From positions 1-24,288 of IMG/VR virus record IMGVR_UViG_3300030108_001282: a DNA stretch of 24,288 nt. One strand, 5' to 3'. Origin of the DNA: a virus. The translations under genes were made by a program, and so were the position numbers. Positions 1-15,554 of the stretch are shown here, piece after piece (position 1 is the stretch's first letter; every line of letters starts with the position of its first letter). The notes under the pieces are model-generated. The model made no database searches. It saw nothing but the letters and a program-made list of their open reading frames with translations, and was not told where the DNA came from.

Positions 1-1069
1 ATCTAGCGGTATTTCTCTTGTAACTGCTGAAACACCCTCTAGTGGTGGAGACGAAATTGAGAGTGTTGACTCTGTTAAGAAGTTTGCACCGCAAATTTAT
101 GCTACTCAAAACCGTGCTTTGACCTCAAATGACTACGAAATTCTAATTCCTAACAAAATTTACCCAGAAACCGAGTCAATTTCAGTTTATGGGGGTGAAG
201 AATTGGTTCCTCCACAGTATGGAAAGGTTTTTATTAGTATAAAACCAAGAACTGGAGACTTTGTTCCTAATGCAATTAAGGAAAATATCAAAAGAGACCT
301 CAGAAAATACTCTGTAGCGGGAATTGTGCCCGAAATTCTCGATCTCAAGTATCTCTACCTTGAGACTGATAGTAATGTTTACTATAATACCAGTCTTGCA
401 CCCAATTCAATGCTGGTTTCATCAACAATTTTGAACAATATTAACAAATTAGCTGCTTCTGCAGAGTTAAATAAGTATGGAGCAAGGTTTAAATACAGTA
501 AATTCCTTAAAGTTATCGATCAAAGTCATGAATCTGTAACCTCAAACGTCACAACAGTTGAAATGAGACGCGATTTAAGGTTAGCTATAGATCAATTTGC
601 TGAATATGCTATTGATTTTGGTAATCAGTTCCATATTTCGTCTATGGATGGGTTTAATATTCGTTCTAGTGGATTCAGAGTATTGGATATTGCTAATGAT
701 GTTTATCTTTATGACCTTCCAAATACTGATAAGAAGACAGGATCGCTTGGTTTATTCTCTTTAGATGCACCAGGTTCAACAACTCCAATGATTGAAAGGT
801 CAAATGTGGGTATTGTTAACTATGTTACTGGTAGAATTACTCTTAACCCTATTAATATTGTTTCTGGAAAAACAAAAGATGCTCAACAAATTCTAGAAAT
901 ATCCGTTGTTCCAGAATCAAATGACGTAATTGGATTACAGGATCTTTATTTGCAACTAGATACTAGTAATGTAGAAATGGTTGTTGATGAAATCGCATCA
1001 GGTGCAGACCCATCAGGATCAACATATACAGTTACATCAAGTTATACAGACAGAAAGATTGTAAGATAA
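1..1069 (+). CDS. gp6: Baseplate wedge subunit gp6, C-terminal part (5' end outside window)
   Basis: The frame is open from base 2 to the TAA at 1067-1069, giving 355 visible residues, so the true start lies upstream. gp6 forms the inner wedge ring of the T4-type baseplate around the hub; T4 gp6 is about 660 residues. The recognisable block is near the left edge: APQIYATQNRALTSNDYE, followed by the IYPETESISVYGGEELVPP and GKVFISIKPR motifs, which are typical of gp6/baseplate-J-like wedge proteins. Further on, a GIVNYVTGRITL segment fits the same family. A TTG at 119 could be read as a start, but it falls inside the conserved block (the L of NRALTSNDY) and is not the real start. Only 3 nt separate the stop from the next ATG, so it is probably co-transcribed with gene 7, as in T4. 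The family call is from remembered motifs. Confidence 0.85.
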   Translation, partial: SSGISLVTAETPSSGGDEIESVDSVKKFAPQIYATQNRALTSNDYEILIPNKIYPETESISVYGGEELVPPQYGKVFISIKPRTGDFVPNAIKENIKRDLRKYSVAGIVPEILDLKYLYLETDSNVYYNTSLAPNSMLVSSTILNNINKLAASAELNKYGARFKYSKFLKVIDQSHESVTSNVTTVEMRRDLRLAIDQFAEYAIDFGNQFHISSMDGFNIRSSGFRVLDIANDVYLYDLPNTDKKTGSLGLFSLDAPGSTTPMIERSNVGIVNYVTGRITLNPINIVSGKTKDAQQILEISVVPESNDVIGLQDLYLQLDTSNVEMVVDEIASGADPSGSTYTVTSSYTDRKIVR

Positions 1070-1072
1070 CAC

Positions 1073-4000
1073 ATGACCGATAAAAGAGTTCAAATTAATA
1101 AGGTTGTCAAAGAACAACTCCCTAGTTACGTTAGGGATGATAGCCCTTTAGTCGGTGAATTCTTAAGTGCATACTATCAAGGTCAGGAATATCAAGGCGG
1201 CCCGATTGATATAATCAACAATCTAGACTCTTACATACAATTAAACAAATCAGGCACTCTAGTCGGTTTTACGACCCTCTCAAGTGCTGTTGGCCAGTTT
1301 GATCAAACCATATCTGTAAAGGATACTACTGGATTTCCAGATAATTATGGTTTATTGAAAATAGATGATGAAATAATCACATATACTGGATTAACAACAA
1401 ATTCATTTACTGGATGTATTCGCGGATTTAGTGGTATTACCTCTTTTAGTAATCCTGATGAACCAGAGGAATTTGTATTTTCATCATCCAAAGCAGGAGC
1501 TCATGCAGTTGGTGTTGGAACAAGTGGTGGTCAGGTTCATAATTTAAGTAATTTATTTTTAGAAGAATTTTTAAAGAAGTCTAAAAAACAATTTTTACCT
1601 GGTTTTCAAAAAGATTTATCTCCTACATTAAATCAACCACAATTTATTCGTCATTCAAAAGATTTTTATAACTCTAGGGGAACTGACGAGTCATTTAAAT
1701 TACTATTTAAATCATTATATAACGAAGAAGTAGATATTGTTAGACCTGCCGATTATGTAATTGCACCATCAGATGCCAATTACAGAAAAACTCGTGACAT
1801 TATAGTTGAGGCAATTCAAGGTGATCCAATGGATCTTGAAAATAAAACACTATTTCAAGACCCATTTGAAAACTTATCTAGAGCATATGGCCCCGTGTCA
1901 ATGGTCGAAAGGGTTAGAGTTGGTCTTTTAACTGAAACCTATTACAAAGTTAGTATTGATGCTTCATTTGGAACAGGTAGTTCTGATGAGTTGCTTTATG
2001 GTAATTTTGCTGTTCATGCCAATTCAAGAAATGTTGGTGTAGTTGGAGCAGCACAAACTTTTATTGATGTTGATTCAACTATAGGTTTTCCTGATAATGG
2101 AACTTTAACATTTAAATATCAAAATGGAACTGTAGGAGTCTGCACATACTCTAGCACAAACATAACTCAGTTTTTGGGTATAAGCACAACTGGTATTACC
2201 ACTACTATTAAGGATGCTACACCAATTAGACAAAATACCTATGTTTATGCCTTGGGTCAAGCAAACAGCACCGCAGGGGTCACTACAGACGGTATACGAT
2301 GCAGAATAACAGGTGTGTTGGGTGGTATAGAACTTCCTGACACTTTCTATCAAAGAACAGGTGCAAAAGTAAAATTAAAATCTTTAGGTAAGATAGCAAA
2401 AGTAACTGATTTTCAGTCAAATAACTGGATATTTAATATTCAACCAAAATATAATGTAGATACTATTACACTACAAGATGCTTCAGGCCCAACTTACGAA
2501 GTAACTACAAAAGATTTTCATAGAATAAGAATAAATGATACAATATCAGTTCAAACATCAACTGGAGATTTAACTGGCAGTTATGTTGTCACTGATGTTC
2601 TATCAGATGAAGCTGGATCTCAACCGAATAAAATCAGAATGCAGGGATCTGCAATAAGTGATCTTACTGCAGTTCTTTCAATAAGAAAACTTCTTTCAAA
2701 ACCTAATTCTGATGGAAGTAGTGTAGATGATAATCACCAACATTTAAATGATTTTACTGCTAATGTTCAAAATGTTTATATGGAAGAAGTGGGATATGCT
2801 CACACTCTTTCTAAACTTAAGAACTTAATTGCATCTAACTCTCTACCAACATATGGATCTGATCATAAGTTAAATCCAAGCACTCAGAAAATTAAATTAT
2901 CTGGAACATTTAATGGTGGAGCCACAACCATTGCAATTACAAGTGGAGATAATGATCACAACTTCTTTAGTGGTGATGCCATTTATTATACACCACAAAA
3001 ACAATCTGACGGAACTATTGATAGTTTTCTTTTCAGTGAAGGATTATATTTTGTAGAACGTGTAGATAAAAATAATATAAAGTTAGCAAAATCTAGATCA
3101 AACTTATATAACGGTAATTATCAAAAGGTTTCTGAAGCCACTGTTACAACAACCATTGTAGATAATACTTTTGAGAAATACGAATTTCATAGAAAAATTA
3201 TTCAACCACAAAAACTGTTTAGAGAAATCGACATGCCAGTTTATGATGGTAAGAAATATAAAACAAGAATTGGATATAATGGTATTTTAATTAATGGTGT
3301 TGAAGTATTAAGTTATAAGTCTCAAGATCTTTGTTACTATGGTGAGATTAAATCAATTGATGTAACTGGTGGTGGTAGAAAGTATGATGTTATAAATCCA
3401 CCTCAGTTAGCGATTAACGATGGTGTGGGAGCAGGTGCTACAGGATATGTTGCAACCAGAGGTAGCTTACAAGAAATATTAATTGAAGATCCAGGTTTTG
3501 ATTATCTTGATATTCCTAAAGTATCAATAAGTGGAGGAAATGGAAGTGGTGCTGTTGCTGAGTGTAAGATGGTTACAGTTCCTCATCAGGTGGTGTTTAA
3601 TTCTGGTTCAGGATCTCAAACTATAGTTGTAAAAGGATCTGATGATTTTAACGTAGGATTTTTAACTTATCATAAATTTAGAAATCATGAGCAAGTTATA
3701 TACGATACATTTGGGGAAAAGGCATTAGCAGGATTAAGCACTGGTGCAGTATATTATGTTAATACCTCTACTCCTACTGGTATGACAGAAATTGATACAT
3801 GGGTGGGATATGCAGGAAATACTTGGTATCCACAAAAAACAATTAGACTTCATAGAAACTTAGATGAAGCAGTTATTGGTATCAATACTATAGCTTTCAC
3901 TGCTGCTGGTGAAGGAAATCATCAGTTCAGATCTTTCAAAGGTAAATTGCAAGTTGGTAGTATAAATGTATTAGAATCTGGTGAGGGATATGAGAATAAA

Positions 4001-7000
4001 CTTAAAACCTGTGAACCAACTGGTATTAATACTGCACTTGATAGAATCACCATTAGCAACCATGATTATAAGACAGGTGAGATTGTAACTTATACTCCTG
4101 ACTCTGGTGGAACTGCTATTGAGGGTCTTTCGAGCGATAAAAAATATTATGTTTCTGTTATAGATGAAAATACATTTAAGTTATCAAATGTAGGTCTTGG
4201 AACGACTGCAAAAGATTTTTATTTTAAGACAAAACAATATCAACGTTTAAATTCAATTGGAGTAGGAACTCATAGTTTTAATTATGATCCAATTGTAGTA
4301 AAAGTTGAGGGTATTGTTGGTATAAGTTCGATAGAGGGTAATACTTTCCAATGTGTTCCTCAACCACTGTTTAGAGGTGAGGTTACATCTGTTCATTTGA
4401 CAAATGGTGGTGTTGGATATGGTGCATCCGAAATACTTAACTTTAATAGACAACCTAGAGTTGACTTATACAGTGGAGTAAGTGGTGAATTATTACCCGT
4501 TGTTGCTAACGGTCAAATTATTGATGTCGCGATTCAAAACAGAGGTCAATCTTATAATACACCACCCAGTATTTCAGTCACAGGTGTTGGAACTGGTGCA
4601 GAATTAGTTCCAGAGATAGTGGATGGTGAAATTAGAAATATTAAGATAATCAAGGCTGGTGTTGGATATGGTGCATCTACAACATCACTTAATGTCATTG
4701 CTGCTGGTGAATTTGCTATTTTCAATACTAATTTACAAACATGGCAAGTAAACGAGGTTAGAAAAAACTTCACAAATATTGATAGTTCTGATGTATTCAT
4801 AGAGAAACCAACACAACTTAGTCGTGAGCTACAATGTTCACATGCATATGTGCCAAGAGGTTTAAGAAAGGTTTTATATCAAAACAATTCAGATGGAGAT
4901 CCATTAGTTGGAACTAGAGATCTAGCTTTATCAAGTGGTGTAGAACAAAACAGAACACAACACTCACCAATTATTGGTTGGTCATATGATGGTCTTCCAA
5001 TATATGGCCCATATGCATATGAAAAGAGCACTGGTGGATCAGTTGTTCAACTTAATTCTGGTTATTCTGTTGATCTAAAAACTAATAGACCTCCCACTAG
5101 CGTTTTCCCACAAGAATTCTTTATAGAAGACTTTACATGGAATAGTAACACTGATGAAACTTATCTTGATGAAAACAATGGAAGATATGGTGTAACTCCC
5201 GAATATCCAAATGGAACATATGCTTATTTTGCTACTCTTGAATCAACAGTAACATCAGATTCTAGTGATCCATTCAACAACTTTAAAAAACCAAAATTCC
5301 CATATTTGATAGGTGAAAACTTTAATGGTCAACCAAATGAATTTAATTTCTTATCTAGGAGTAATCAAGATGAAATTGATCTTAATGAAACTGGTTGGGT
5401 AAGAAATACTGAACCATATGAATTACTTCAAGATGATAGTTCTTATGATTATGTAAGTCAATCATATAAGTATGTTACTCAAGAAGGTTCTATTGTTTAT
5501 GCTTCCGAAGGATCTGTAGAAAAAATTGGTATTGTAACTGGAGGTTCCTCATATCAGGTTGGCGATAAACTCGTATTTGAAGAAAAAGTTGCTGAAAACT
5601 TTGAAACAGTTGGAAAAGTATCTAGGGTGACAGGGCCTGGTATTGGAACTATTTCAGTTACTAATACAAAATTACAAAATGTTGAATTTTATCCTGCTGA
5701 TGAAAGAGGAAGATTCGTTGGTGTTCATACTACCCCATTAAATTTACAAAATGGTGATAAAGTTTTTGTGTCTGGAATGTCAACCACTAGTTCTAGACTT
5801 GGCCAAAAAACTTATAGTATTGGAATAACATCATCAAAACTATTATTATCTGAAGATATACCAAAAGTTTCTGTTACTGGATTAGTCACATTCTTTAGTG
5901 TTCAAGGTAAATTACCTTCTCCAAATTCAAATCTCAACAGTCTCAATTTAAGAGAAAATGATATTTTAAAAGTTGGAACTGGAGATCAATTAGAGACAGT
6001 TAAAGTATTAAATATAGACTCTGCTAACTCTAGAATAAGAGTATTAAGAAATCAGAATGAGTTAGACGATAGCACTGGTATTGGAGCAACTCATCCAATA
6101 GGAACAACGATAGAAGAAGATCCTAGAAAATTTAAAATTGATGTTGGTTTTACCACTACGTTTGATAATGAAGTTGATTTTGAATACTACTTTAATCCTG
6201 TAGAATCTGTAGGTGTTGGAACAACTGCTGGGCCTGGAATAGGAACAACAGCTACAATTAGCAACGCTGCTGGTGGAAGAAATTCAGTATTCATACCAAC
6301 AAGATCTATATTCTTACCAAATCATAAATTTAAAACTGGAGATCAGGTAACATATCATAGAAACACTGGTAATCCTATAGGTATCGCAACTAACCGTGCT
6401 AGAGCTAATTTATTTGCATCGGGTAATAATTTAGTTAATCTTGGTGCAAATCATAATACAGAATTTATGCCACTATTTGTAGCTAAATTATCTGACGATT
6501 TAATTGGTTTATCAACTGTTAGAATTGGTGTAGGAACTACTGGTGGTGGTATAGATCCAGAGGATGTATTTACTGGTGTTGGGCATACTATTAAACAACA
6601 AAGTTTAGTATACTTTACAGGTATCGGAACTGGCACATACCATAGTCTTAGAAGAAAATATAATGACACAGTAACAGGATCGATAGAGAAAAATTTAATC
6701 ACCGTATCAACTGCTAGTAGTCATGGTTTAGAACATAATGATAAAGTATTTTTATCTGTAAATGCTGGTAAGACTACGACTGTTCCTATCAAATACAATA
6801 AAGCAAATAGAAAATTAATTGCAAGAACTCTAGATTTTACCGCATCTGGTATTACCACTTCAGGATCTATAATTAACGATCCTGGTTCGATTGAAATAGT
6901 GGGTCATGAGATGGTCACTGGTCAAAGAGTTATTCTCACAGCAAATACAGCAATAGCTGGTTTAACTAATGATGAAGAGTATTTTGTATATGTTGTTGAT

Positions 7001-10000
7001 AAAGATAAAATTAAATTATGTGCTAATAGATTTGAAACAAGACAAAGTAGACCTAAGTTCGTTACAGTTGGTAGTGCTGGCACTGGTGGAGTATTTAATT
7101 TAGTTAATCCACCATTAGAGTTTTATAGAAATGGAACTGTAGTGTTTGACTTATCGGATTCATCTTTATCATACATCAAGATTACAGATACGTTACCTGC
7201 ATTTGATTTAGAACTCTATACAGACTACAATTTTATTCACAAATACACATCAAATGAACAGTCATCAACATTCAATGTAAGTAGAAGTGGAACGGTTGGT
7301 ATAGATGGAAAACTAACATTAACATATAATCAAAATACTCCAAGATTACTTTATTATAACTTAGTTGCAAATACATCTTCTGATAATCCTGACATAAACA
7401 AAGAACTTGTTTTAGATAAAGAAATTATAGGAAATAATTCAATATCATTTAAAGATAGTCGTTATGCAGGTCAGTTTAATATTCTTGCAAATTCAACAAA
7501 TACATTTACATATGATTTAAATAGATTTCCTGAAGAAGAATCATATACAAGTTCAAGCACAACTATTTTAAGTTATAATACTACATCTAAAACTGCTTAT
7601 GGCCCAATAGCAGCAGTTTCATTGTCTGAAAAAGGAAAAGGATATACTAGATTACCTGGTGTATCTACTGTAACCTCTGACACAGGAACAGGTGCTATTT
7701 TAGAAGCATCTAGCACATCAATAGGTGTTCCTCAAACTACAAAAATTGATAACATTGGTTTTGATTATCCATCAGACTTTACATTAAGACCTCAATCAAA
7801 ACTTCCGCAAATTATTAAAATTTCAGCACTATCTGGTTTAAAACGTGTTGGAATTACATCTTATGGTAGAGGTTATAATCACCCACCAACATTAGTTGTT
7901 CTTGATGGTCTTACCAGACAAAAAGATAATGATGTTGATTTAGTCTATAATTTGACAACTCCTGATACACCTGGTTATGTTGATATTATTGAAAATACTT
8001 ACGGTTTATCTAACGTAACTCCTATTATTGTTCCTGTTAATAATCCTAATGGAATTAGAGTTACAAATCTTGTTTATGATTCATCTACAGAAACTGTTGC
8101 TGCAACATTAAAAGTTGCTTATAGTCTTGCATCAGAATTTCCTATAGAAGTGGGTGATAAACTTTTAGTTGAAAATGCTAGTGTTGGAGTTGGATCTACA
8201 GGAAAAGGATATAATTCTGAAGGATATGATTTTAGAACCTTTGAAGTTACACAAGTTCACCAGAATTTAGGTAACGTTGGTATAGTAACTTATAGTATGT
8301 CTGGTTTAGTTGCAAGTGGTGAAATACCTGGTACTTTTAATACCCTATTATCATCAGCAATATTAGTAAGAGAAAGAGATTTTCCACAATTCTCTGCTGA
8401 ATTGCAACCAAACACATTCAATACGAAAGAAACATTGGTATCTGAAACCAGTGTTGGCCCAGTTTCTGGTGTTGTTGCAGAATATGATCCTGCAAGTCAA
8501 TGGTTAACCATAGAAGCAGCTAGCGATTTTGAAGTTGGTAAACTAATCGAATCTGAAGTGACAGGTGCAAAAGGAACTGTATCTGACATAATTCTTACTT
8601 TTGATACTAATTTCTTAGTTGATTATTTCTCAATGGTCAATAATGGATGGGAATACGAAACAGGTTTCTTAAGCAACGTATTACAAGTAACTCATGATAA
8701 TGAATACTATCAAAGGTTTGCATATGCGATTAAATCTAGAGTATTCATGGATAAATGGAAAGATATCGTTAATACTTTAACTCACACTGCAGGATTCCAA
8801 AAGTTTAGTAATCTTCAATTAGAATCAACTTTACCAGTTGATCAAAAAACAGATTTAGTAGTAGGCCTTGCTGGAACTGTAACTGGTGTTATTGATTTAA
8901 TTGGAAAAGAAAGTTTGCATGAAGTTGATAACTTTGATTTAGCTACAGAAAATTTAAAATCAAGATCTCCTGCATCTGGTAATCTATCTGATGAAATTAC
9001 TTTCCAAAACCGTATCTTAATTGACTATGCTGAGTCTGTAGGAAATAGAGTTATTACTATTGACAATATTAGTGATCAATTTAATGATTTACCAAGAACA
9101 ACAGCATTCTCTGAGGTGGGTAGATTTTCAATTGCAGGTAATAAAGAAAATAGATTTATGGTGTATGTGAAGGATAGTTTATTTGAAGGTGAAAGACAAT
9201 TAATGATGGTTAACGCTTTGTTTGATCCTGTTAGTGGTCAATCAATGATTAACCAGTATGGTCAAGTAGATACTGTAAGAGATCTTGGATCTATGGATTC
9301 TGCTGTTGATGGAAATGAAGCAGTTCTTAATTTCTTCCCTAATAAGAGTGAGTTTAACAACTACAATGTAACAACACTTTCATACAACCTTAATGAACTT
9401 GTTGGAAGTGGAACAACACAAATTGTAGGTTTATCAACTTCCATAGTAAACCGTTCTAATCCTGGCATAGGAACCACAGCACTTGTTCATATTGGTGCTG
9501 CAACAACATTAGCTGGATCTTCTCATGCTGGTGATGAGGTTGAGGTAATCATAGCCACTGTGGGAACCGCATCTACGGATGGTGGAGTTTTTAACACAGG
9601 ATTGGGAACAGCTAGAAGTGATGAATTATATAATCCTAGATCTGCCAAAATGATTGTCTCTGTGGCAACAAGTGAAGGAACTGTTGAATATAATGAATTG
9701 AGTATGATCATGCATCAAAATCCTGTAGGTTTAGGATCTACTGTTGCATTTGAGCAGTATGGTCAATTAACAATTCATAATAGAAGAGATTCTCTTGCTG
9801 CAGAACCATTAGGAACATTTAGACCACATATTGTTGGTCTTGGAAGCACTGCTCAAATTAAAGTTGGATTTACACCGAGGGCTGGTATTGCAACTGCATA
9901 TATCAACTCGATTACCATAGGAATATCATCTGAAACTCGTGTTGGATTAGGAACTTTACCATTAAAAAATGGAGCATTAATTGCTCAATCATCCACAATC

Positions 10001-13000
10001 CCATCAAGATCTGCACCGTTCCCCGTGGGTGTTGGTAGTTATAGCGAAGAGTTTGATGCTGCATATGCATTAGTTCAAGTCAAGGATACTACAAATGATA
10101 GATATGAGTTCTCAGAGATTATGATGATTGACGATGATACTCGTGTATTCATGACAGAGTATGGAAATATTATAACTGGAGCGAGTGTTAATGCAAATGC
10201 AACTGGTATAGGAACTATTGGTGGAAGAAGAGATGGATCAGATTGCTTTACAGAAATATCATACGTTCCAAATGCAAATACAGCTGTAGAAGTTAAAACA
10301 TTTATTCATGCTCTTAAAGTTCATGAGGATAATAATACTAATAAAATTGAATTGCAATCTGGATCTATTCAAACTAAGTTTGATGTATATGAGGGAACAT
10401 TCTTTGGATCTAAAACTAGTTTCCCAATATTAAATGAAACTAATCAGGTATTTAAGAAAGACTTTGATGGATCTAGCACTGACATAGTTAATTTAACAAA
10501 TAACACTATTAGTATTCCTAATCATTTCTTTGTAACTGGTGAGGAGGTTGAATATCGTATAAAACAACCTATAGTGGGATGCACAACCACAGGTGTTGGA
10601 GCGACTACAGATTCAATAGGAATCGCTGCTAGTACCTTTGTGATTCCGACTGGAATTGTAACAGTTTCATATATTCCCGATAAAGCTTTTATTATTAAAG
10701 TTAGTGATAGTTTAGTTAAACTTGCATCATCTGCAGAAAACGCACTTAAATCAATTGCAGTTCCATTAGATCTTACTGCTGTTGGTATAGGATCTTCACA
10801 TAGTTTAATAAGTAAGAACCAAAATACAAGAGCATTGATAGCGATTGATAATATCATTCAAAGCCCTATCGTGGGTACTGGAGTTACATCATCCCTTACT
10901 GCTAATTTTGCGAAGAGTGAGACGATAATGTCAACCTCTGGTATAACATCATTCTTTGCTGGTGATGTTATTAAAGTTGGTGTTGACACTACTGGAAGTG
11001 AGATGATGAAAGTTATATCTGTTAATCATGCTGGAGTGGCTAATGCCATGAGAGTTCATAGACAATGGATGGGAACGAAACTTTTGGATCATAATAATAA
11101 GGATCTTATCGAGAAGATGTCTGGTAATTATAATATTGTTGATAGCACTCTTAACTTTATTGAAGCACCAAAAGGTGGTAGACCCATAGGTGTTGGAAGC
11201 ACTGGCCTTCCATCAATGGATAGAGACTTTACTGGTATTACGACCACATCAAGTTTTAGTGGAAGAATATTTAATAGATCTGGTCTTGCTGGAGGAAACA
11301 TTGATGCTTACTCTAGAAACTATTCTATTGATGATATATCTCAAGAATTTACAGGTCAAAAAGAAGTATTCACTCTGAAATCAGATGGGGCAAATGTAAC
11401 TGGTATCGCCACAAACCTTGGTATTGTAATGGTGAATGGTATACTACAGGGTGCTGGAGATTTAAATGATTATACTCTATCTGAAGTTTCTGGAATTACA
11501 TCCATAACATTTACAGGATCTCCAGCATCTGTTGCTAATGATGTAAATACCGCGTCTGTTCCTGTTGGTGGAATTATTATATCAGTTGGATCAAGTGAAG
11601 GATTTGGATATCAAGCCCTAGTTGGTGCTGGTGCTACTATTGATTTTGATAATGCAGGTAAAGTTAAAACCGTTAGTATCGGTAATAGTGGTTCTGGTTA
11701 TAGAATACTCCCAGGCCCAGTGGGTATGGGAACAACATCAATTAGTGGTGTAGGAATAGCGACTGTTATTAATGTTGCTGTTGCCACATCCACTACTGGA
11801 GTTCCAGTTCTTTATAACATTGGAACTGCTGCTGTTCATAATGGTCGAATTGTAAGTATTGCTGTTACAAATACTGGTTCAATACCTGGCATAGGAACTA
11901 ATAATCCAATATTAGCTGGAACTAATGTGGGATATGGTGCTTCAACATTTACTGCTATAATTGATAAACCATTACCTTATCAAGATATTCCTCTTTGGTA
12001 TGAAAATACTCATTTCAACCCAGTTGGTGGTGGTGGATCACAGGCAAGAGCAAATATTACAGTTGGAGTTGGTACCACAGGAATTGGCAGTGTAATTGAT
12101 TTTGAAATTACAAATACAGGATATGGTTATGGTATTGGTCATACTTTAACTGTTCCTACATTTAGATCTGCACCAGTTGGAACATCAACAGATAAACCTG
12201 TAAGTGCATATGCGATACCAGTTGATGATCCAAGCAAACCATTTAAACCTTTCCAGATAACAGTTCAGAAAGTTCACTATGATGAATTCAATATGTGGAC
12301 AATGGGTGAATTACAGGCTCTTGATGATTTCTCAAGTCTATTCAATGGAACTAGAAAACAATTCCCACTTACAGTTGCTGGAGAAGCATTTGCTATACAA
12401 GCAAGAACTGGTTCAAACATAGTTGTGCAGAATACCATTATTCTAACAATAAATGATGTTTTACAAGTGCCAGGTGAAGGTTATGAGTTTGATGGTGGTG
12501 GAACAATAACATTCACAGAAGCACCAAATGCAACTGACGTAATGAGAATGTTCTTCTATAGAGGAACTGGTGGTGCTGACGTTGTTGACAGAGATATTAT
12601 TGAAACTGTAAAAGTTGGTGATGATTTACAATTAGGATATAATCCAACTTATAACACAAGAACTTTCCTTGAATTTCCTAGAGCAGTTCATGAAATCAAA
12701 TCATCTGATACTGTTGTAACTAATCAATATTATGGAAGAGGTTTAGGTGATAGTGATACTGAAAGAAGACCTGTTAAATGGTATAGACAATTAGAAGATA
12801 GGTTTATTGATGGAAAAATTGTTCGTAAAGATAGACCACTATACGAACCTAAGTTATTCCCAACCTCATATTTAATTCAACCAGTTGGTGTTGGTCAAAC
12901 AGAGATATTCATTGATAGTTGCAAACCATTCTTTAATCCTGAAAATGAGAATCCTTCAGACAGAGGTTTCCAAAAAGAAATTCAAATAGTTAATGCAAGT

Positions 13001-13945
13001 TCTGAATATGAGTTTCTTGCTGGTGCTGCTGCGACTGCAATCGTGTCTATTGCCAATACAATACAACATTTTTCAATTACAGACGCTGGTGATGGATACA
13101 CATCTGTTCCTGAAGTTAGAATACAGCAACCTATAAGTATTGGTGGAACTCCATTTGTCGGTATTGGAACCACTGCAACAGCCATTGCAACTGCGACAGT
13201 TACTAATGGATCTATTTCATCAATTACAGTTGGTATCAATTCAGGGATTGTTGGAACTGGTTATACTTCTGCTGCACCTCCACAGGTTCTAATTGCTCCA
13301 CCTACATATGTTAGGGAAGAAAATAGCATTGATTTATATGAAGGAGACTTTGGTATTATCAGTGGAGTTGGCATATGCACAGATGTTACAAATACAACAT
13401 TAACTGGTGATCAAACAGTTGGTATTACAAGTGGAATAGCTTTTGATTTATTCATTCCAAAAGAATCTGCTTTGAGAGATGATAACATCAATAGCCCTAA
13501 CGCGATAGTAAGAAGTGGTCTACAAACTGGATATTATTTCACTGTTAGTAATTCTAATCTTGGATCAGGTATCACTGCACTTGCTAAAAGTGATGGTTCT
13601 GTCATTGGTATTGGAACTACTGCCCTAGATGGCATATATGAAGTTGCTCATCATGCTGGAATAACGACAGTATCATTTGGTCAAAGCACAACAGAACTAG
13701 CAACAAGGGTGTTCTGTAGAGTTCTAGATTGGCATGGTTTAGTTGGTGTTGTTGGTTTAGCCACAGCAAATGCAGGTATAGTTACATCATTCATCGGTGA
13801 CTTTAGTTGGGGTCGATTACAACTAAATGATAGACAATTATCACAGGCATATACCGTCAACACTAGCAATGGTGTAACGGGTATTAAGACTGGCCCGCAA
13901 ATTAAGAGAAAGGCAGCTCTTAAATCTGACAATTATGTTGTCTAA
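1073..13945 (+). CDS. gp7: Giant gp7-like baseplate wedge protein (4290 aa) with YHYH-like domain and many beta repeats
   Basis: This is an uninterrupted 4290-residue frame. Residues 194-222 (HSKDFYNSRGTDESF...LYNEEVDI) closely match the T4 gp7 block SRSYDFYSTKGIEASYKFLFKVLYNEEVEI. Residues about 2535-2585 (NEYYQRFAYAIKSRVFMDKW) match the T4 gp7 block RSYYVMKIKSNLPSSRWKSD. In T4 these blocks are about 100 residues apart. T4 gp7 has about 1030 residues, and most of its N-terminal part has no visible counterpart here. Other modules: a GFPDN...EIITYTG module at 60-130; H-x3-TGD repeats with H at 629, 872, 997, 1751, 1945 and 3151; GxGY repeats; a YHYH-like domain at about 1297-1420; three EYG-type repeats at 2693-3085; two NGxLQ modules near 3455 and 3794; and a terminal GDFSWGRL module at 4242. 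No signal peptide, membrane segment or enzyme site was seen. The ATG at 1073 is 3 nt after gene 6 and has no strong Shine-Dalgarno. gp7 initiates the wedge in T4, where it binds gp10 and gp8; the same role here is inferred. Confidence 0.85.
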   Translation: MTDKRVQINKVVKEQLPSYVRDDSPLVGEFLSAYYQGQEYQGGPIDIINNLDSYIQLNKSGTLVGFTTLSSAVGQFDQTISVKDTTGFPDNYGLLKIDDEIITYTGLTTNSFTGCIRGFSGITSFSNPDEPEEFVFSSSKAGAHAVGVGTSGGQVHNLSNLFLEEFLKKSKKQFLPGFQKDLSPTLNQPQFIRHSKDFYNSRGTDESFKLLFKSLYNEEVDIVRPADYVIAPSDANYRKTRDIIVEAIQGDPMDLENKTLFQDPFENLSRAYGPVSMVERVRVGLLTETYYKVSIDASFGTGSSDELLYGNFAVHANSRNVGVVGAAQTFIDVDSTIGFPDNGTLTFKYQNGTVGVCTYSSTNITQFLGISTTGITTTIKDATPIRQNTYVYALGQANSTAGVTTDGIRCRITGVLGGIELPDTFYQRTGAKVKLKSLGKIAKVTDFQSNNWIFNIQPKYNVDTITLQDASGPTYEVTTKDFHRIRINDTISVQTSTGDLTGSYVVTDVLSDEAGSQPNKIRMQGSAISDLTAVLSIRKLLSKPNSDGSSVDDNHQHLNDFTANVQNVYMEEVGYAHTLSKLKNLIASNSLPTYGSDHKLNPSTQKIKLSGTFNGGATTIAITSGDNDHNFFSGDAIYYTPQKQSDGTIDSFLFSEGLYFVERVDKNNIKLAKSRSNLYNGNYQKVSEATVTTTIVDNTFEKYEFHRKIIQPQKLFREIDMPVYDGKKYKTRIGYNGILINGVEVLSYKSQDLCYYGEIKSIDVTGGGRKYDVINPPQLAINDGVGAGATGYVATRGSLQEILIEDPGFDYLDIPKVSISGGNGSGAVAECKMVTVPHQVVFNSGSGSQTIVVKGSDDFNVGFLTYHKFRNHEQVIYDTFGEKALAGLSTGAVYYVNTSTPTGMTEIDTWVGYAGNTWYPQKTIRLHRNLDEAVIGINTIAFTAAGEGNHQFRSFKGKLQVGSINVLESGEGYENKLKTCEPTGINTALDRITISNHDYKTGEIVTYTPDSGGTAIEGLSSDKKYYVSVIDENTFKLSNVGLGTTAKDFYFKTKQYQRLNSIGVGTHSFNYDPIVVKVEGIVGISSIEGNTFQCVPQPLFRGEVTSVHLTNGGVGYGASEILNFNRQPRVDLYSGVSGELLPVVANGQIIDVAIQNRGQSYNTPPSISVTGVGTGAELVPEIVDGEIRNIKIIKAGVGYGASTTSLNVIAAGEFAIFNTNLQTWQVNEVRKNFTNIDSSDVFIEKPTQLSRELQCSHAYVPRGLRKVLYQNNSDGDPLVGTRDLALSSGVEQNRTQHSPIIGWSYDGLPIYGPYAYEKSTGGSVVQLNSGYSVDLKTNRPPTSVFPQEFFIEDFTWNSNTDETYLDENNGRYGVTPEYPNGTYAYFATLESTVTSDSSDPFNNFKKPKFPYLIGENFNGQPNEFNFLSRSNQDEIDLNETGWVRNTEPYELLQDDSSYDYVSQSYKYVTQEGSIVYASEGSVEKIGIVTGGSSYQVGDKLVFEEKVAENFETVGKVSRVTGPGIGTISVTNTKLQNVEFYPADERGRFVGVHTTPLNLQNGDKVFVSGMSTTSSRLGQKTYSIGITSSKLLLSEDIPKVSVTGLVTFFSVQGKLPSPNSNLNSLNLRENDILKVGTGDQLETVKVLNIDSANSRIRVLRNQNELDDSTGIGATHPIGTTIEEDPRKFKIDVGFTTTFDNEVDFEYYFNPVESVGVGTTAGPGIGTTATISNAAGGRNSVFIPTRSIFLPNHKFKTGDQVTYHRNTGNPIGIATNRARANLFASGNNLVNLGANHNTEFMPLFVAKLSDDLIGLSTVRIGVGTTGGGIDPEDVFTGVGHTIKQQSLVYFTGIGTGTYHSLRRKYNDTVTGSIEKNLITVSTASSHGLEHNDKVFLSVNAGKTTTVPIKYNKANRKLIARTLDFTASGITTSGSIINDPGSIEIVGHEMVTGQRVILTANTAIAGLTNDEEYFVYVVDKDKIKLCANRFETRQSRPKFVTVGSAGTGGVFNLVNPPLEFYRNGTVVFDLSDSSLSYIKITDTLPAFDLELYTDYNFIHKYTSNEQSSTFNVSRSGTVGIDGKLTLTYNQNTPRLLYYNLVANTSSDNPDINKELVLDKEIIGNNSISFKDSRYAGQFNILANSTNTFTYDLNRFPEEESYTSSSTTILSYNTTSKTAYGPIAAVSLSEKGKGYTRLPGVSTVTSDTGTGAILEASSTSIGVPQTTKIDNIGFDYPSDFTLRPQSKLPQIIKISALSGLKRVGITSYGRGYNHPPTLVVLDGLTRQKDNDVDLVYNLTTPDTPGYVDIIENTYGLSNVTPIIVPVNNPNGIRVTNLVYDSSTETVAATLKVAYSLASEFPIEVGDKLLVENASVGVGSTGKGYNSEGYDFRTFEVTQVHQNLGNVGIVTYSMSGLVASGEIPGTFNTLLSSAILVRERDFPQFSAELQPNTFNTKETLVSETSVGPVSGVVAEYDPASQWLTIEAASDFEVGKLIESEVTGAKGTVSDIILTFDTNFLVDYFSMVNNGWEYETGFLSNVLQVTHDNEYYQRFAYAIKSRVFMDKWKDIVNTLTHTAGFQKFSNLQLESTLPVDQKTDLVVGLAGTVTGVIDLIGKESLHEVDNFDLATENLKSRSPASGNLSDEITFQNRILIDYAESVGNRVITIDNISDQFNDLPRTTAFSEVGRFSIAGNKENRFMVYVKDSLFEGERQLMMVNALFDPVSGQSMINQYGQVDTVRDLGSMDSAVDGNEAVLNFFPNKSEFNNYNVTTLSYNLNELVGSGTTQIVGLSTSIVNRSNPGIGTTALVHIGAATTLAGSSHAGDEVEVIIATVGTASTDGGVFNTGLGTARSDELYNPRSAKMIVSVATSEGTVEYNELSMIMHQNPVGLGSTVAFEQYGQLTIHNRRDSLAAEPLGTFRPHIVGLGSTAQIKVGFTPRAGIATAYINSITIGISSETRVGLGTLPLKNGALIAQSSTIPSRSAPFPVGVGSYSEEFDAAYALVQVKDTTNDRYEFSEIMMIDDDTRVFMTEYGNIITGASVNANATGIGTIGGRRDGSDCFTEISYVPNANTAVEVKTFIHALKVHEDNNTNKIELQSGSIQTKFDVYEGTFFGSKTSFPILNETNQVFKKDFDGSSTDIVNLTNNTISIPNHFFVTGEEVEYRIKQPIVGCTTTGVGATTDSIGIAASTFVIPTGIVTVSYIPDKAFIIKVSDSLVKLASSAENALKSIAVPLDLTAVGIGSSHSLISKNQNTRALIAIDNIIQSPIVGTGVTSSLTANFAKSETIMSTSGITSFFAGDVIKVGVDTTGSEMMKVISVNHAGVANAMRVHRQWMGTKLLDHNNKDLIEKMSGNYNIVDSTLNFIEAPKGGRPIGVGSTGLPSMDRDFTGITTTSSFSGRIFNRSGLAGGNIDAYSRNYSIDDISQEFTGQKEVFTLKSDGANVTGIATNLGIVMVNGILQGAGDLNDYTLSEVSGITSITFTGSPASVANDVNTASVPVGGIIISVGSSEGFGYQALVGAGATIDFDNAGKVKTVSIGNSGSGYRILPGPVGMGTTSISGVGIATVINVAVATSTTGVPVLYNIGTAAVHNGRIVSIAVTNTGSIPGIGTNNPILAGTNVGYGASTFTAIIDKPLPYQDIPLWYENTHFNPVGGGGSQARANITVGVGTTGIGSVIDFEITNTGYGYGIGHTLTVPTFRSAPVGTSTDKPVSAYAIPVDDPSKPFKPFQITVQKVHYDEFNMWTMGELQALDDFSSLFNGTRKQFPLTVAGEAFAIQARTGSNIVVQNTIILTINDVLQVPGEGYEFDGGGTITFTEAPNATDVMRMFFYRGTGGADVVDRDIIETVKVGDDLQLGYNPTYNTRTFLEFPRAVHEIKSSDTVVTNQYYGRGLGDSDTERRPVKWYRQLEDRFIDGKIVRKDRPLYEPKLFPTSYLIQPVGVGQTEIFIDSCKPFFNPENENPSDRGFQKEIQIVNASSEYEFLAGAAATAIVSIANTIQHFSITDAGDGYTSVPEVRIQQPISIGGTPFVGIGTTATAIATATVTNGSISSITVGINSGIVGTGYTSAAPPQVLIAPPTYVREENSIDLYEGDFGIISGVGICTDVTNTTLTGDQTVGITSGIAFDLFIPKESALRDDNINSPNAIVRSGLQTGYYFTVSNSNLGSGITALAKSDGSVIGIGTTALDGIYEVAHHAGITTVSFGQSTTELATRVFCRVLDWHGLVGVVGLATANAGIVTSFIGDFSWGRLQLNDRQLSQAYTVNTSNGVTGIKTGPQIKRKAALKSDNYVV
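1652..1738 (+). other. First conserved gp7 core block
   Basis: This encodes residues 194-222 of the giant protein. The pattern HSKDFYNSRGTDESF followed by LYNEEVDI aligns with the T4 gp7 block that reads YDFYSTKGIEASYKFLFKVLYNEEVEI. It is the strongest single reason to call this ORF gp7. The following stretch up to about residue 300 (DIIVEAIQGDPMDLENKTL, then YYKVSID) also resembles the T4 segment after the block. The T4 comparison is from memory, not from an alignment. Confidence 0.8.
4409..4677 (+). repeat. In-frame direct repeat framing two GxGY units
   Basis: The 20-base string GGTGTTGGATATGGTGCATC occurs at 4409-4428 and again at 4658-4677. The copies are 249 bases (83 codons) apart and both encode GVGYGAS. 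Between them a diverged half-way copy (GQSYNTPP at residue 1158) with preceding VANGQIIDVAI parallels VDGEIRNIKII before the last copy. This gives a repeat of about 40 residues. It looks like a local tandem duplication inside the gene. Confidence 0.75.
4961..5330 (+). other. Degenerate YHYH-family domain inside gp7
   Basis: Residues 1297-1420 hold the ordered signature of the YHYH domain family: HSPIIGWSYDGLPIYGP at 1297, LDENNGR at 1365 (usually LDECNG plus H), GTYAYF at 1381 where the family has YHYH, and FPYLIGENFNG at 1409. The framework is intact, but both histidines of the YHYH tetrad are replaced (Y1383 A Y1385 F) and the usual Cys of LDECNG is Asn. The family's function is poorly known. 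In this structural protein the domain probably serves as a folded or binding module. Confidence 0.75.
8675..8827 (+). other. Second conserved gp7 core block
   Basis: This encodes residues 2535-2585 of the giant protein, starting NVLQVTHDNEYYQRFAYAIK and continuing SRVFMDKWKDIV. It resembles the T4 gp7 segment with RSYYVMKIKS and SRWKSDVIRFVHP. The TAGF and FSNLQLES continuation sits where T4 has the VGFGFIAITLL stretch. In T4 this block closely follows the first one; here it lies about 7 kb of coding sequence downstream. Confidence 0.7.
9149..10330 (+). repeat. Three tandem EYG-type phage tail modules in gp7
   Basis: Three diverged copies follow the second gp7 core block. Residues 2693-2775 contain FMVYVKD...NQYGQVDT. 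Residues 2857-2955 contain AKMIVSVATS...FEQYGQLTIH...LGTF. Residues 2997-3085 contain AYALVQVKDTTNDRYEFSE...MTEYGNIITG. Each has a V-x-V-K/A-D/T strand, a 20-30 residue linker, an E/Q-YG strand and a terminal V-rich strand. The third copy is closest to the YLVQVTDTTN...TEYG sequence that recurs in many phage tail proteins. Linkers contain GLGST/GIGTT turns. Confidence 0.65.
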
Positions 13946-13973: not shown

Positions 13974-15554
13974 ATGGCGGCTATCATAACGGATCAAATA
14001 AGAATATTAAATGCAAAGAATTTCGTAGCTGGTGTATCTACTTCGACTAACTCTTATTATGCATTTGTTGGTTTACCCAACCCAACTGCGTATCAAAGTG
14101 ACTGGGATTCAAATCCTCCAGCACCAGTTGATAATTTTGATAATATGAATGACTATCACGATACTATGCTTGCTGTGAAAAGGGTGACATCTACTGATGT
14201 AAAACAAATTGTTCCAAAATTGAACTGGAACTCTGGAACAACATATGATTATTATAGACACGATTATAGTATTTCTAATGCACCACCAAACTCTGGTGGA
14301 ACATCTTTGTATACTGCAAACTTCTTTGTTGTTAACAGTGACTTTAGAGTTTATATTTGCTTACAGAACGGAACAACTCCAGAAACACCTGATGGTAAAC
14401 CGTCTCTAGACGAACCAACTTTCACAGATTTAGAACCAAGAACACCAGGTACTTCTGGAGATGGATACATTTGGAAATACTTATATAGTATTAAACCAGC
14501 AGATTTGATTAAATTTGATTCTACCGATTTTATGCCTGTTCCAGCAAATTGGGGATCTGATGCTTCAGATGCTGCTGTTAAGAACAATGCTACAGATGGT
14601 GGAATAAAAATTGTTGTTGTTAAAAATAGAGGAACTGGTATAGGAACTGCTAACCAAACTTATACTAGAGTTCCAATTAAAGGTGATGGATTCAATGCAG
14701 AATGCACTGTTGTTGTTAATAATGACGCTCAAATAGAAAGTGTTACTGTATCAAATGAAGGATTTGGATACACTTATGGTAATGTTGATTTAGCTGCTGG
14801 ATCTGTTCCAACACCAACCTCTCAACCAACTCTTGACGTTATCATTCCACCACCAGGTGGTCATGGTGCAGACATTTATAGAGAATTGGGTGCAACTAAT
14901 GCTTTATTGTATGCAAGAATTGAAAATGATGCTGAAAACCCAGATTTCATAACTGGAAACCAAGTTGCTAGAATAGGTATTTTAGAGAACCCTAAAGCAT
15001 TCAATTCTAATGAAATACTTACATTAGATAAAGCTAGTGCTGCATATGCACTAAGATTGTCGGGAACTGGATACAGTTCTGTAACATTTACTGCAGATGA
15101 TTATATAAGACAAACTGTTGCCACTGGATCAACTGCTGTTGGAAGAGTTATTTCTTACGATCAGACAACTGGTGTTTTAAAATATTGGCAAGATAGAACA
15201 ATCGCAGGTTTTGCTACTGCAGGATCAAGTGGTATTAGCACAGCGTTAACACCTACCCATTTAGATTTAAATGTTCCAAGTTATAATACCACTAGATTTA
15301 CATCTGAACCATCTTCAGGTGGAAGTGTGACTATTGTTGGTGGTAGTTCTAATTTATCGATCAGCACCGTGTTCTCAGGCCTTTCTACTACTCTAAATAA
15401 TAGAACCTATTACCTTGGTCAGTCATTTACTAAGGGAGTTTCTAATCCAGAAGTTGACAAATATTCTGGAAATATGATTTATGCTGATCACAGACCATCT
15501 ATCACAAGATCTTCCAATCAAAAAGAAGACATCAAAATAATATTACAGTTCTAA
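13974..15554 (+). CDS. gp8: Baseplate wedge subunit gp8
   Basis: This is a 526-residue protein; T4 gp8 has 334. Two T4 gp8 landmarks are clear. GDGYIWKYLYSI (residues 162-173) matches T4 GDGYVWEYLFEI. The C-terminal SGNMIYADHRP...EDIKIILQF matches T4 SGEMIYMENRP...EEINILFTF and ends at the stop exactly as in T4. The N-terminus MAAIITDQIRILNAKNFV is the form seen in marine T4-like phages. In T4, gp8 is a dimer in each wedge that binds gp7 and gp10 and adjoins gp6. Extra length includes a glycine-rich insertion at about residues 215-280 (GTGIGT...EGFGYTYGN) of the kind repeated in the neighbouring giant proteins. The start is the first in-frame ATG, 28 nt after the gene 7 stop; no clear Shine-Dalgarno is present. 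The next gene begins 6 nt after the stop. Confidence 0.93.
   Translation: MAAIITDQIRILNAKNFVAGVSTSTNSYYAFVGLPNPTAYQSDWDSNPPAPVDNFDNMNDYHDTMLAVKRVTSTDVKQIVPKLNWNSGTTYDYYRHDYSISNAPPNSGGTSLYTANFFVVNSDFRVYICLQNGTTPETPDGKPSLDEPTFTDLEPRTPGTSGDGYIWKYLYSIKPADLIKFDSTDFMPVPANWGSDASDAAVKNNATDGGIKIVVVKNRGTGIGTANQTYTRVPIKGDGFNAECTVVVNNDAQIESVTVSNEGFGYTYGNVDLAAGSVPTPTSQPTLDVIIPPPGGHGADIYRELGATNALLYARIENDAENPDFITGNQVARIGILENPKAFNSNEILTLDKASAAYALRLSGTGYSSVTFTADDYIRQTVATGSTAVGRVISYDQTTGVLKYWQDRTIAGFATAGSSGISTALTPTHLDLNVPSYNTTRFTSEPSSGGSVTIVGGSSNLSISTVFSGLSTTLNNRTYYLGQSFTKGVSNPEVDKYSGNMIYADHRPSITRSSNQKEDIKIILQF

Follow-up and report, generated by a model that had tools for sequence, protein, structure and literature searches.

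In bacteriophage T4, gp7 is the initiator of the baseplate wedge (Protein Data Bank (PDB) entries 5IV5 and 5HX2), and the baseplate is described as carrying six copies of it (PMC3004832). In phage XM1, the gp7 orthologue is reported to dock the tail spikes via a loop plus its C-terminus (PMC10457771), and in the type VI secretion system (T6SS), TssG is reported to dock TssK trimers via two loops (PMC6300606). T4 Gp7 was stated in 2020 to be absent from pelagi- and cyanomyophages and apparently substituted by VrlC (PMC7029224), and an earlier survey listed gp7, with extreme divergence, among the genes common to non-cyanophages (Sullivan et al. 2010, PMC3037559). The GenBank records of P-SSM4 and P-HM2 name a giant gene gp7, which is a long-standing name for a gene of disputed identity. 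Here, a giant gp7 homologue is analyzed in the IMG/VR virus record IMGVR_UViG_3300030108_001282, a virus fragment whose 24,288 bases make up the window. A single stop-free frame between gp6 and gp8 encodes this protein of 4,290 residues and 462.8 kDa. Giant proteins of cyanophages already bear the gp7 annotation; the window protein belongs to this known family as a giant variant that has a defined growth slot.

Results

A gp7 core in three pieces

The comparison with T4 gp7 was performed in profile form. A hidden Markov model (HMM) of 291 positions, built from nine compact IMG/VR proteins with spacers of 83-95 residues between two conserved blocks and with the window excluded from the seeds, runs through T4 gp7 in one unbroken stretch (profile 10-267, T4 648-891, 34.6 bits) and through RB16 likewise (643-904, 51.6 bits). 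In the window protein, the same profile aligns as three separate pieces that keep its order (residues 7-57, 163-313 and 2460-2592; Table 1). The best decoy domain from 200 shuffled window proteins, 200 shuffled T4 gp7 sequences and 18 reversed sequences reaches 6.0 bits with this profile and 2.7 bits with the C-core profile described below; on this ground, a chance similarity of the blocks was rejected.

Block 1 (DFYxxKG...LF..L.NE.V) occupies residues 191-223, which pair with T4 gp7 727-759 in a phmmer search (E 0.046 alone), and the T4-gp7 family PHROG 964 matches residues 192-222 at 3.8e-5. Block 2 (YYQ.FSY.I.S...HPAG) lies at residues 2534-2583 according to a C-core HMM made from five sequences, the window stretch among them; outside its seeds, this HMM matches T4 865-888 at 11.5 bits. 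When profiles were compared with profiles, the two T4 sites were recovered with their order preserved, at E values of 6.6e-10 and 2e-4, with the third-best match at 0.25. The blocks are 106 residues apart in T4 and 2,288 in the window, and they are nearly adjacent in the Pfam Baseplate_wedge profile, where block 1 reaches approximately 221-227 and block 2 starts at approximately 233 in the best stretches of different proteins. A first-pass annotation of the window had placed the blocks at residues 194-222 and about 2535-2585, and about 100 residues apart in T4, which is right within a few residues; both fall in the one continuous T4 region and not in unrelated ones.

Because the compact profile runs unbroken through T4 gp7, the blocks are judged to form one core and not two domains. 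The minimal gp7 core consists of an N-terminal helix hairpin, followed by a small alpha/beta domain of block 1 and block 2. The T4 helical domain PF21428 is located at T4 gp7 643-689, and a Pfam scan of the window protein gives no match to domain VI (PF21456).

An AlphaFold 2 (AF2) model was obtained for the compact core of IMG/VR locus L077 (295 residues, blocks 86 apart; predicted local distance difference test score, pLDDT, 74; predicted template-modelling score, pTM, 0.42). A Foldseek search of the PDB with this model returns only three matches below 0.001, with the best at 2.2e-11; all are T4-type gp7, as assigned by chain length plus sequence searches. The model superimposes on T4 gp7 639-896 with a VIA Z of 10.5 over 228 residues. 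A baseplate chain of cyanophage A-1(L), of gp6 or gp7 type, matches model residues 96-274 (Z 6.3, root-mean-square deviation (rmsd) 2.5, 65 aligned) using only 81 residues of its own, so that the two halves of the core would be closer there by at least 98 residues; this predicted match is only suggestive. Taken together, the profiles and the predicted model show a continuous core in T4 and the compact relatives and the same core, interrupted, in the window; they also argue against two separate domains.

A different reading would have the blocks arise by chance or convergence in an unrelated large structural protein, with gp7 replaced by VrlC as stated in PMC7029224. The weak single-sequence score of block 1 is in keeping with it, as are the weak matches of the compact profile around the domain-V part of VrlC (best 8.3 bits, in HTVC008M). 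However, the block profiles find no block 1 in the VrlC of HTVC008M or of the window, and block 2 scores -2.1 bits in the former and is not found in the latter. Both blocks are instead present in Pelagibacter phage HTVC008M, the reference phage of PMC7029224, in the gene between gp6 and gp8 (33435-36485), whose 1,016-residue product is annotated 'putative structural protein': the core lies at residues 4-42, 149-294 (1.3e-28) and 670-821. Block 2 of this protein occupies residues 764-807, the spacer measures 517 residues, and site 1 (defined below) has domain-V-like matches. Profiles, order, gene position, decoys and fold all agree, and a chance origin of the blocks is considered extremely improbable. 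The shared gp7 core contradicts the published absence of gp7 from cyano- and pelagimyophages, and it is found where the 2010 survey placed gp7 only among non-cyanophage core genes. No description of a split gp7 core was found in the open-access literature searched; most subscription journals were outside this scope, so that its absence from the literature is unproven.

Two insertion sites and a C-terminal tail

The core of the window protein is opened at two loops, site 1 (approximately 105 residues, between HMM positions 56 and 60) and site 2 (approximately 2,200 residues), and is extended by a tail of approximately 1,700 residues, compared with 144 residues after the block 2 match in T4. The right edge of site 2 is uncertain between residues 2460 and 2520: the third piece covers again the profile positions 156-203 that are also in the second piece, and its alignment there is of low confidence. 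Since only the part from approximately residue 2520 onward is confidently aligned, the size of the insertion is given as 2,146 to 2,206 residues.

In T4, domain V (PF21427, 766-861) sits exactly between the blocks, just before block 2, and a domain-V profile built on the compact sequences matches T4 774-826 at 6e-12, which indicates that T4 fills the same slot with one domain. In the window, the position of domain V falls inside the alignment of residues 163-313. A reading with one copy of domain V on either side of the insertion was also considered and dropped, as the third piece is aligned there with low confidence and the separate domain-V profile finds neither copy.

The extra mass is 11.0 kDa at site 1, 239.8 kDa at site 2 and 179.6 kDa in the tail, compared with 119.2 kDa for the whole of T4 gp7. 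If six copies per baseplate are assumed, as in T4, the total would be 2.8 MDa.

The first-pass annotation had proposed that the T4 C-terminal core is kept and opened at a loop by about 2,200 residues, that the long T4 N-terminal part is missing and that a huge extra mass is thereby placed on the wedge. The retained core, the size of the insertion and the missing N-terminal part (T4 residues 1 to approximately 640) all hold, but the core is in three pieces and opened at two loops, and the insertion accounts for only about half of the extra mass, with the tail making up most of the rest. Its observation is thus confirmed and its interpretation supported, with the large insertion located in the slot that T4 domain V already uses.

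A ladder of slot sizes among relatives

The block-to-block spacer, measured as the distance between the block 1 and block 2 matches, ranges overall from 83 to 2,808 residues with many intermediates. Both blocks are present in the window and in all 17 named-phage proteins, a count that is partly by construction because the block profiles took their seeds from OC, BUCT608, ACP17, phiM12 and the window, and tblastn matches had guided the choice of named phages; what these proteins show is the spread of spacers. The short spacers are those of OC (87), five T4-type phages (104-106), and BUCT608 and ACP17 (249-250); phiM12 (793), S-CRM01 (1,087), and S-PM2 and AG-345-P14 (1,580-1,592) are intermediate; four named phages have 2,164-2,349, a range that includes the window, and P-SSM4 has 2,808. 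Both blocks are also found in 31 of the 32 window-family loci that passed the length and start criteria (out of 57), with spacers of 2,166-2,444.

Among the best 80 of 564 candidates retrieved with a compact query, several of them near-duplicates, 75 loci contain both blocks and the other five run off the end of the locus. Their spacers are 83-95 (10 loci), 171-178 (4), 320-360 (32), 385-444 (21) and at least 499 residues (8). In all ten loci with spacers of up to 95, a single domain-V module is present and G-Y repeats are absent (the domain-V profile drew its seeds from this set). At 171-178, three of the four have two G-Y repeats and the fourth has none; at 320 and above, the number is two to four in 57 of 61, zero in three and six in one, and at 652-765 the domain-V module is repeated in place of G-Y. 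These module counts fit a gain of modules in one slot, and the many intermediate spacers favor stepwise growth over a single event. By sequence comparison, domain V alone fills the larger slot in T4 and in the most compact relatives, and others have longer stretches with beta modules there. Given this graded range at one site, gp7 appears to serve as an integral mount for additional baseplate parts.

The compact named-phage proteins contain both blocks in 631 (OC), 503 (BUCT608) and 482 (ACP17) residues. Block 1 starts within frame residues 53-199 in all 80 compact loci and within residues 50-58 in OC, BUCT608, ACP17 and phiM12. No counterpart of T4 residues 1 to approximately 640 is found in the window protein, and the frames of the compact relatives leave no room for one (a separate gene was not searched for). 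An addition on the T4 side is therefore the better reading than a loss in the marine phages, and the N-terminal two thirds of T4 gp7 were probably added on the T4 side.

An RG module is present in both core loops of the window protein, at residues 77-118, which belong to the profile seeds (window residues 71-118 plus window VrlC), and at 329-371; the best decoy scores 6.0 bits. The same pair, one per loop, occurs in 14 of the 14 cyanophage-type giants scanned and in S-CREM2, with a third copy near the protein end in S-PM2 and AG-345-P14. The RG profile has no match in the 75 compact proteins, the T4-type proteins, phiM12 or HTVC008M, the last two of which have expanded slots without the pair. 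This distribution suggests that the cyanophage-type giants probably share one origin, and to that extent it is consistent with a slot that holds a single transposed or captured gene from one insertion event. The graded spacers of the 75 compact loci, the intermediate values of HTVC008M, phiM12, S-CRM01 and S-PM2, and the fact that part of the slot content consists of repeated modules make such a single event unlikely.

S-CREM2 ORF122 has the same split core as the window and is reported from purified virions by mass spectrometry, with 91 unique peptides and 27.2% coverage (PMC10665884, Table 3). In IMGVR_UViG_3300029319_000469 (2127 onward), the gp7 frame starts inside the gene and encodes 3,130 residues without block 1; a frameshift, an assembly error and a truncated gene are candidate causes. 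In Aeromonas phage CC2, a wedge-annotated gene of 253 residues (749-1510) precedes a shortened gp7 of 895 residues (1564-4251) and might be a split-off part of the T4-type gp7 N-terminus.

Modules in the insertion and the tail

Searches with iterated profiles place five FC (FCCH-like) modules in site 2 together with six G-Y repeats, in agreement with the beta repeats noted in the first-pass annotation. These profiles were seeded with window stretches, and all but two of these FC matches and all but one of these G-Y matches overlap seeds (Table 1); the best decoys score 6.6 and 7.2 bits, respectively. The tail contains one FC and two G-Y matches, of which one G-Y match is marginal (3672-3696, 0.0058). 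The FC profile also matches six times each in SynMITS9220M01, S-CAM9 and P-SSM2; it has no significant match in window VrlC, which Pfam E1_FCCH flags below its cut-off.

Residues 690-1560 were also modelled with AF2. The model consists mainly of beta structure and is confident over approximately 750-1230. Two barrels are predicted in it: the first (836-956) resembles Uba1-type FCCH domains (VIA Z approximately 8, rmsd approximately 2.3, 75-78 aligned), and the second (974-1072) resembles 7sol_A (VIA Z 8.2, rmsd 2.3, 76 aligned) and the endosialidase of phage phi92 (Z 7.2). Foldseek with the whole model finds nothing below 0.001 in the PDB, and a PDB sequence search with a profile of the same residues finds nothing up to E 1. 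Because of this Foldseek result, and because a Z near 8 can reflect a common arrangement, the likeness of these predicted barrels to E1 FCCH domains, and more weakly to an endosialidase domain, is taken as a fold resemblance only. In BFVD, the best match of the model is the baseplate wedge initiator of Synechococcus phage Bellamy, which is uninformative on function.

The YHYH-like domain named in the first-pass annotation is recovered at residues 1292-1395 by PF14240 (74.4 bits versus a cut-off of 25, 1.5e-20). The upstream YHYH motif is expected to carry two histidines; of the presumed metal-site residues, the His of HSP and the Asp of DG are kept in the window, whereas the upstream motif reads SHAY, and the signature is degenerate outside HSP...DG.P.YGP. 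The AF2 model is of low confidence in this part, so no fold is claimed for the domain. For YHYH domains, a metal site of three His and one Asp and a metal-dependent hydrolase activity are predicted (PMC7824862); receptor binding or enzymatic activity of the window domain is putative. In ACG-2014d records including KJ019115 and KJ019121, three places each match the YHYH region query, and the domain may be multiplied there.

Conservation of the insertion

Among eight relatives at 40-50% identity, mean identity is 0.41 in the insertion, 0.46-0.52 in the core pieces, 0.41 in the tail and 0.55 in the YHYH domain. Among eight close relatives, the mean values are 0.81 in the insertion, 0.94 each in core pieces 1 and 2, 0.86 in piece 3, 0.77 in the tail and 0.87 in YHYH. 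A hypervariable receptor-binding insertion is unsupported by the values at 40-50% identity. With its stable length and without hypervariability, the insertion appears from these comparisons to behave more like a fixed part than a host-range region.

These values bear on a rival reading, in which most of the inserted mass is not a structural skirt but an adhesin or enzyme, carried on the wedge as a device to bind or degrade the host. The faster divergence of the insertion among close relatives would suit such a device, as would a YHYH domain from a predicted hydrolase family and the further likeness of the barrels to endosialidase domains (phi92 as above; K1F, Z 6.6); a wedge protein of Bacillus phage Vp4 with carbohydrate-binding modules is reported to bind the host surface (PMC11406892). 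Against this stand the small difference from the core at 40-50% identity, the stable length, the degenerate YHYH signature and the generic nature of the FCCH fold, whose top matches are eukaryotic E1 enzymes at a common level of Z. A host-directed device is thus regarded as possible but doubtful.

The 100-residue bin of lowest identity in five distant relatives (L052, L061, L064, L066 and M01) lies past core piece 3, at residues 2801-2900 (9473-9772), and is a candidate host-range region.

Neighboring genes

The gene order in the window is gp6, the gp7 homologue, gp8 and a DUF4815/VrlC-type gene (Table 1). PHROG 2885 (baseplate wedge subunit, 4,179 positions) covers most of the gp7 homologue in its best stretch, and an NCBIfam scan of the 4,290-residue protein gives no match. 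The G-Y profile matches the window gp8 at residues 254-267. Head closure PHROG 460 scores weakly on gp8 (0.091) and hits gp7 in four stretches. Window VrlC contains domain-V-like matches at residues 87-130 and 867-906 and one RG module at 2154-2203, which is partly a seed of the RG profile. Since the domain-V profile matches VrlC as well, the wedge proteins seem to share a domain-V module, and they may draw on a common module pool.

Table 1. Features of the window, with positions on the 24,288-base stretch and residues of the encoded proteins
Feature	Position	Strand	Evidence
gp6, C-terminal part	2..1069	+	PHROG 219 baseplate wedge, 3.8e-85
gp7 homologue	1073..13945	+	Open frame; PHROG 2885 best stretch, residues 1-3596
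Core piece 1, N-terminal helix hairpin (T4 helical domain region), residues 7-57	1091..1243	+	HMM 6-56, 19.8 bits; PF21428
Site-1 insertion, residues 58-162	1244..1558	+	HMM gap 56-60; RG module 77-118 (profile seed)
Core piece 2, residues 163-313, block 1 (191-223) then weak domain-V-like stretch	1559..2011	+	HMM 60-203, 51.5 bits; phmmer
Site-2 insertion, residues ~314-2519, 239.8 kDa	2012..8629	+	Gap between core pieces; right edge uncertain
Second RG module, residues 329-371, left edge of site 2	2057..2185	+	1.9e-12, not seed
FC module, residues 628-683	2954..3121	+	5.8e-18, overlaps profile seed
G-Y repeats, residues 757-790 (not seed) and 797-829 (seed)	3341..3559	+	4.5e-6, 1.8e-9
FCCH-like barrel (predicted), residues 836-956 (FC match 867-897, not seed)	3578..3940	+	AF2, Z ~8; 1.1e-8
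FCCH-like barrel (predicted), residues 974-1072 (FC match 996-1049, overlaps seed)	3992..4288	+	AF2, VIA Z 8.2
G-Y repeats, residues 1102-1138 and 1147-1176 (both overlap seeds)	4376..4600	+	2.2e-5, 1.5e-6
YHYH domain, residues 1292-1395	4946..5257	+	PF14240
FC module, residues 1750-1820 (not seed)	6320..6532	+	2.2e-12
FC module, residues 1945-1994 (seed)	6905..7054	+	2.7e-17
G-Y repeats, residues 2177-2210 and 2257-2282 (both seeds)	7601..7918	+	8.2e-10, 2.5e-6
Core piece 3, residues ~2520-2592, block 2 at 2534-2583	8630..8848	+	45.1 bits for 2460-2592 (HMM 156-281); C-core HMM
C-terminal tail, residues 2593-4290, 179.6 kDa, one FC (3150-3227, not seed) and two G-Y	8849..13942	+	
gp8	13974..15554	+	Pfam Phage-Gp8, 2.4e-10; PHROG 438, 6.8e-165
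VrlC-type DUF4815 protein	15561..23291	+	Pfam DUF4815, 7.3e-57; without block 1 and without block 2

Discussion

The window protein is best explained as the baseplate wedge gp7 of a cyanophage-type (Kyanoviridae-like) marine myovirus, in which the minimal core is split by growth of a slot and the extra mass forms peripheral baseplate; as a whole, this explanation is considered highly probable. By analogy with T4, TssFG and XM1, the minimal core would link two gp6 chains into the wedge. The slot would be an outward-facing hairpin of the wedge that grew through stepwise addition of beta modules, and the extra mass of approximately 430 kDa per wedge would form a covalently attached peripheral structure. 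Less firmly, this structure might partly take over the functions of T4 gp10/gp11/gp12 and the T4 gp7 N-terminus, that is, shape the periphery, dock fibres and touch the cell, with YHYH as a conserved metal-site or glycan module.

The core identity, the positions of the split, the size ladder and the module content are demonstrated at the level of sequence. The peripheral role is suggested by analogy: the marine giants enlarge loops and the C-terminus, which are the docking parts in XM1, as loops are in TssG, and the T4 periphery genes are missing, cyanomyoviruses being described as without g10, g11, g12 and wac (PMC2984593).

Several points weigh against this explanation. The case for the window protein rests on sequence plus predicted models, and the protein folded was a compact relative, at only the pLDDT and pTM given above, and not the joined core of the window; its global rmsd to T4, 15.6, is large. 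Domain V is weak in the window protein, where the stand-alone profile has no match. The size ladder, taken from a best-80 sample with near-duplicates, is no census of independent lineages, and the number of G-Y repeats shows no steady rise with spacer length between 320 and 765 residues. The insertion also evolves more quickly than the core when close relatives are compared, and the roles of the YHYH, FCCH and G-Y modules are putative only. The docking loops of XM1 gp17 (80-106) and TssG are likened to the window slot as loops, any correspondence in position being conjectural.

The results suggest that much of the extra mass is threaded through gp7, and the ladder of sizes at one defined site allows structural and deletion comparison. 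A broader proposal can be advanced only tentatively: contractile baseplates in general would grow at the hairpin between the two halves of the gp7 core domain, and the cyanophage slot and tail would replace gp10, gp11, gp12 and the T4 gp7 N-terminus in one chain. In that case, the contraction signal would travel inside one polypeptide, starting at the rim that faces the cell and ending at the core of the wedge.

Compared with known systems, T4 gp7 has the same core, the same position between gp6 and gp8 and the same order of hairpin, block 1, slot and block 2 as the window protein, but its N-terminus is longer by approximately 640 residues and its slot holds domain V alone, whereas the window protein has approximately 2,200 residues there and a 1,700-residue tail. 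The compact gp7 proteins (OC, BUCT608, ACP17, phiM12 and the 75 IMG/VR loci) share the core and have no N-terminus of T4 length, and their slots hold 83-793 residues. XM1 gp17 and T6SS TssG, the minimal gp7 equivalents, form a heterotrimer of the (gp6)2-gp7 type in which loops dock the spike or the TssK trimers; in XM1, the loop is 27 residues long and a separate protein docks on it, whereas in the window the loop itself is giant. The cyanophage giants of PHROG 2885 (SynMITS9220M01, 4,067 residues; P-HM2, 4,454; P-SSM4, 7,312) share the three-piece core and differ in spacer and tail lengths. The P-SSM4 gp7 (145-22083) is unlike the window protein in having approximately 600 residues in site 1, with a slot of 2,808 and a tail of 3,718 residues, and SynMITS9220M01 is 52.6% identical to the window protein over the first 319 residues.

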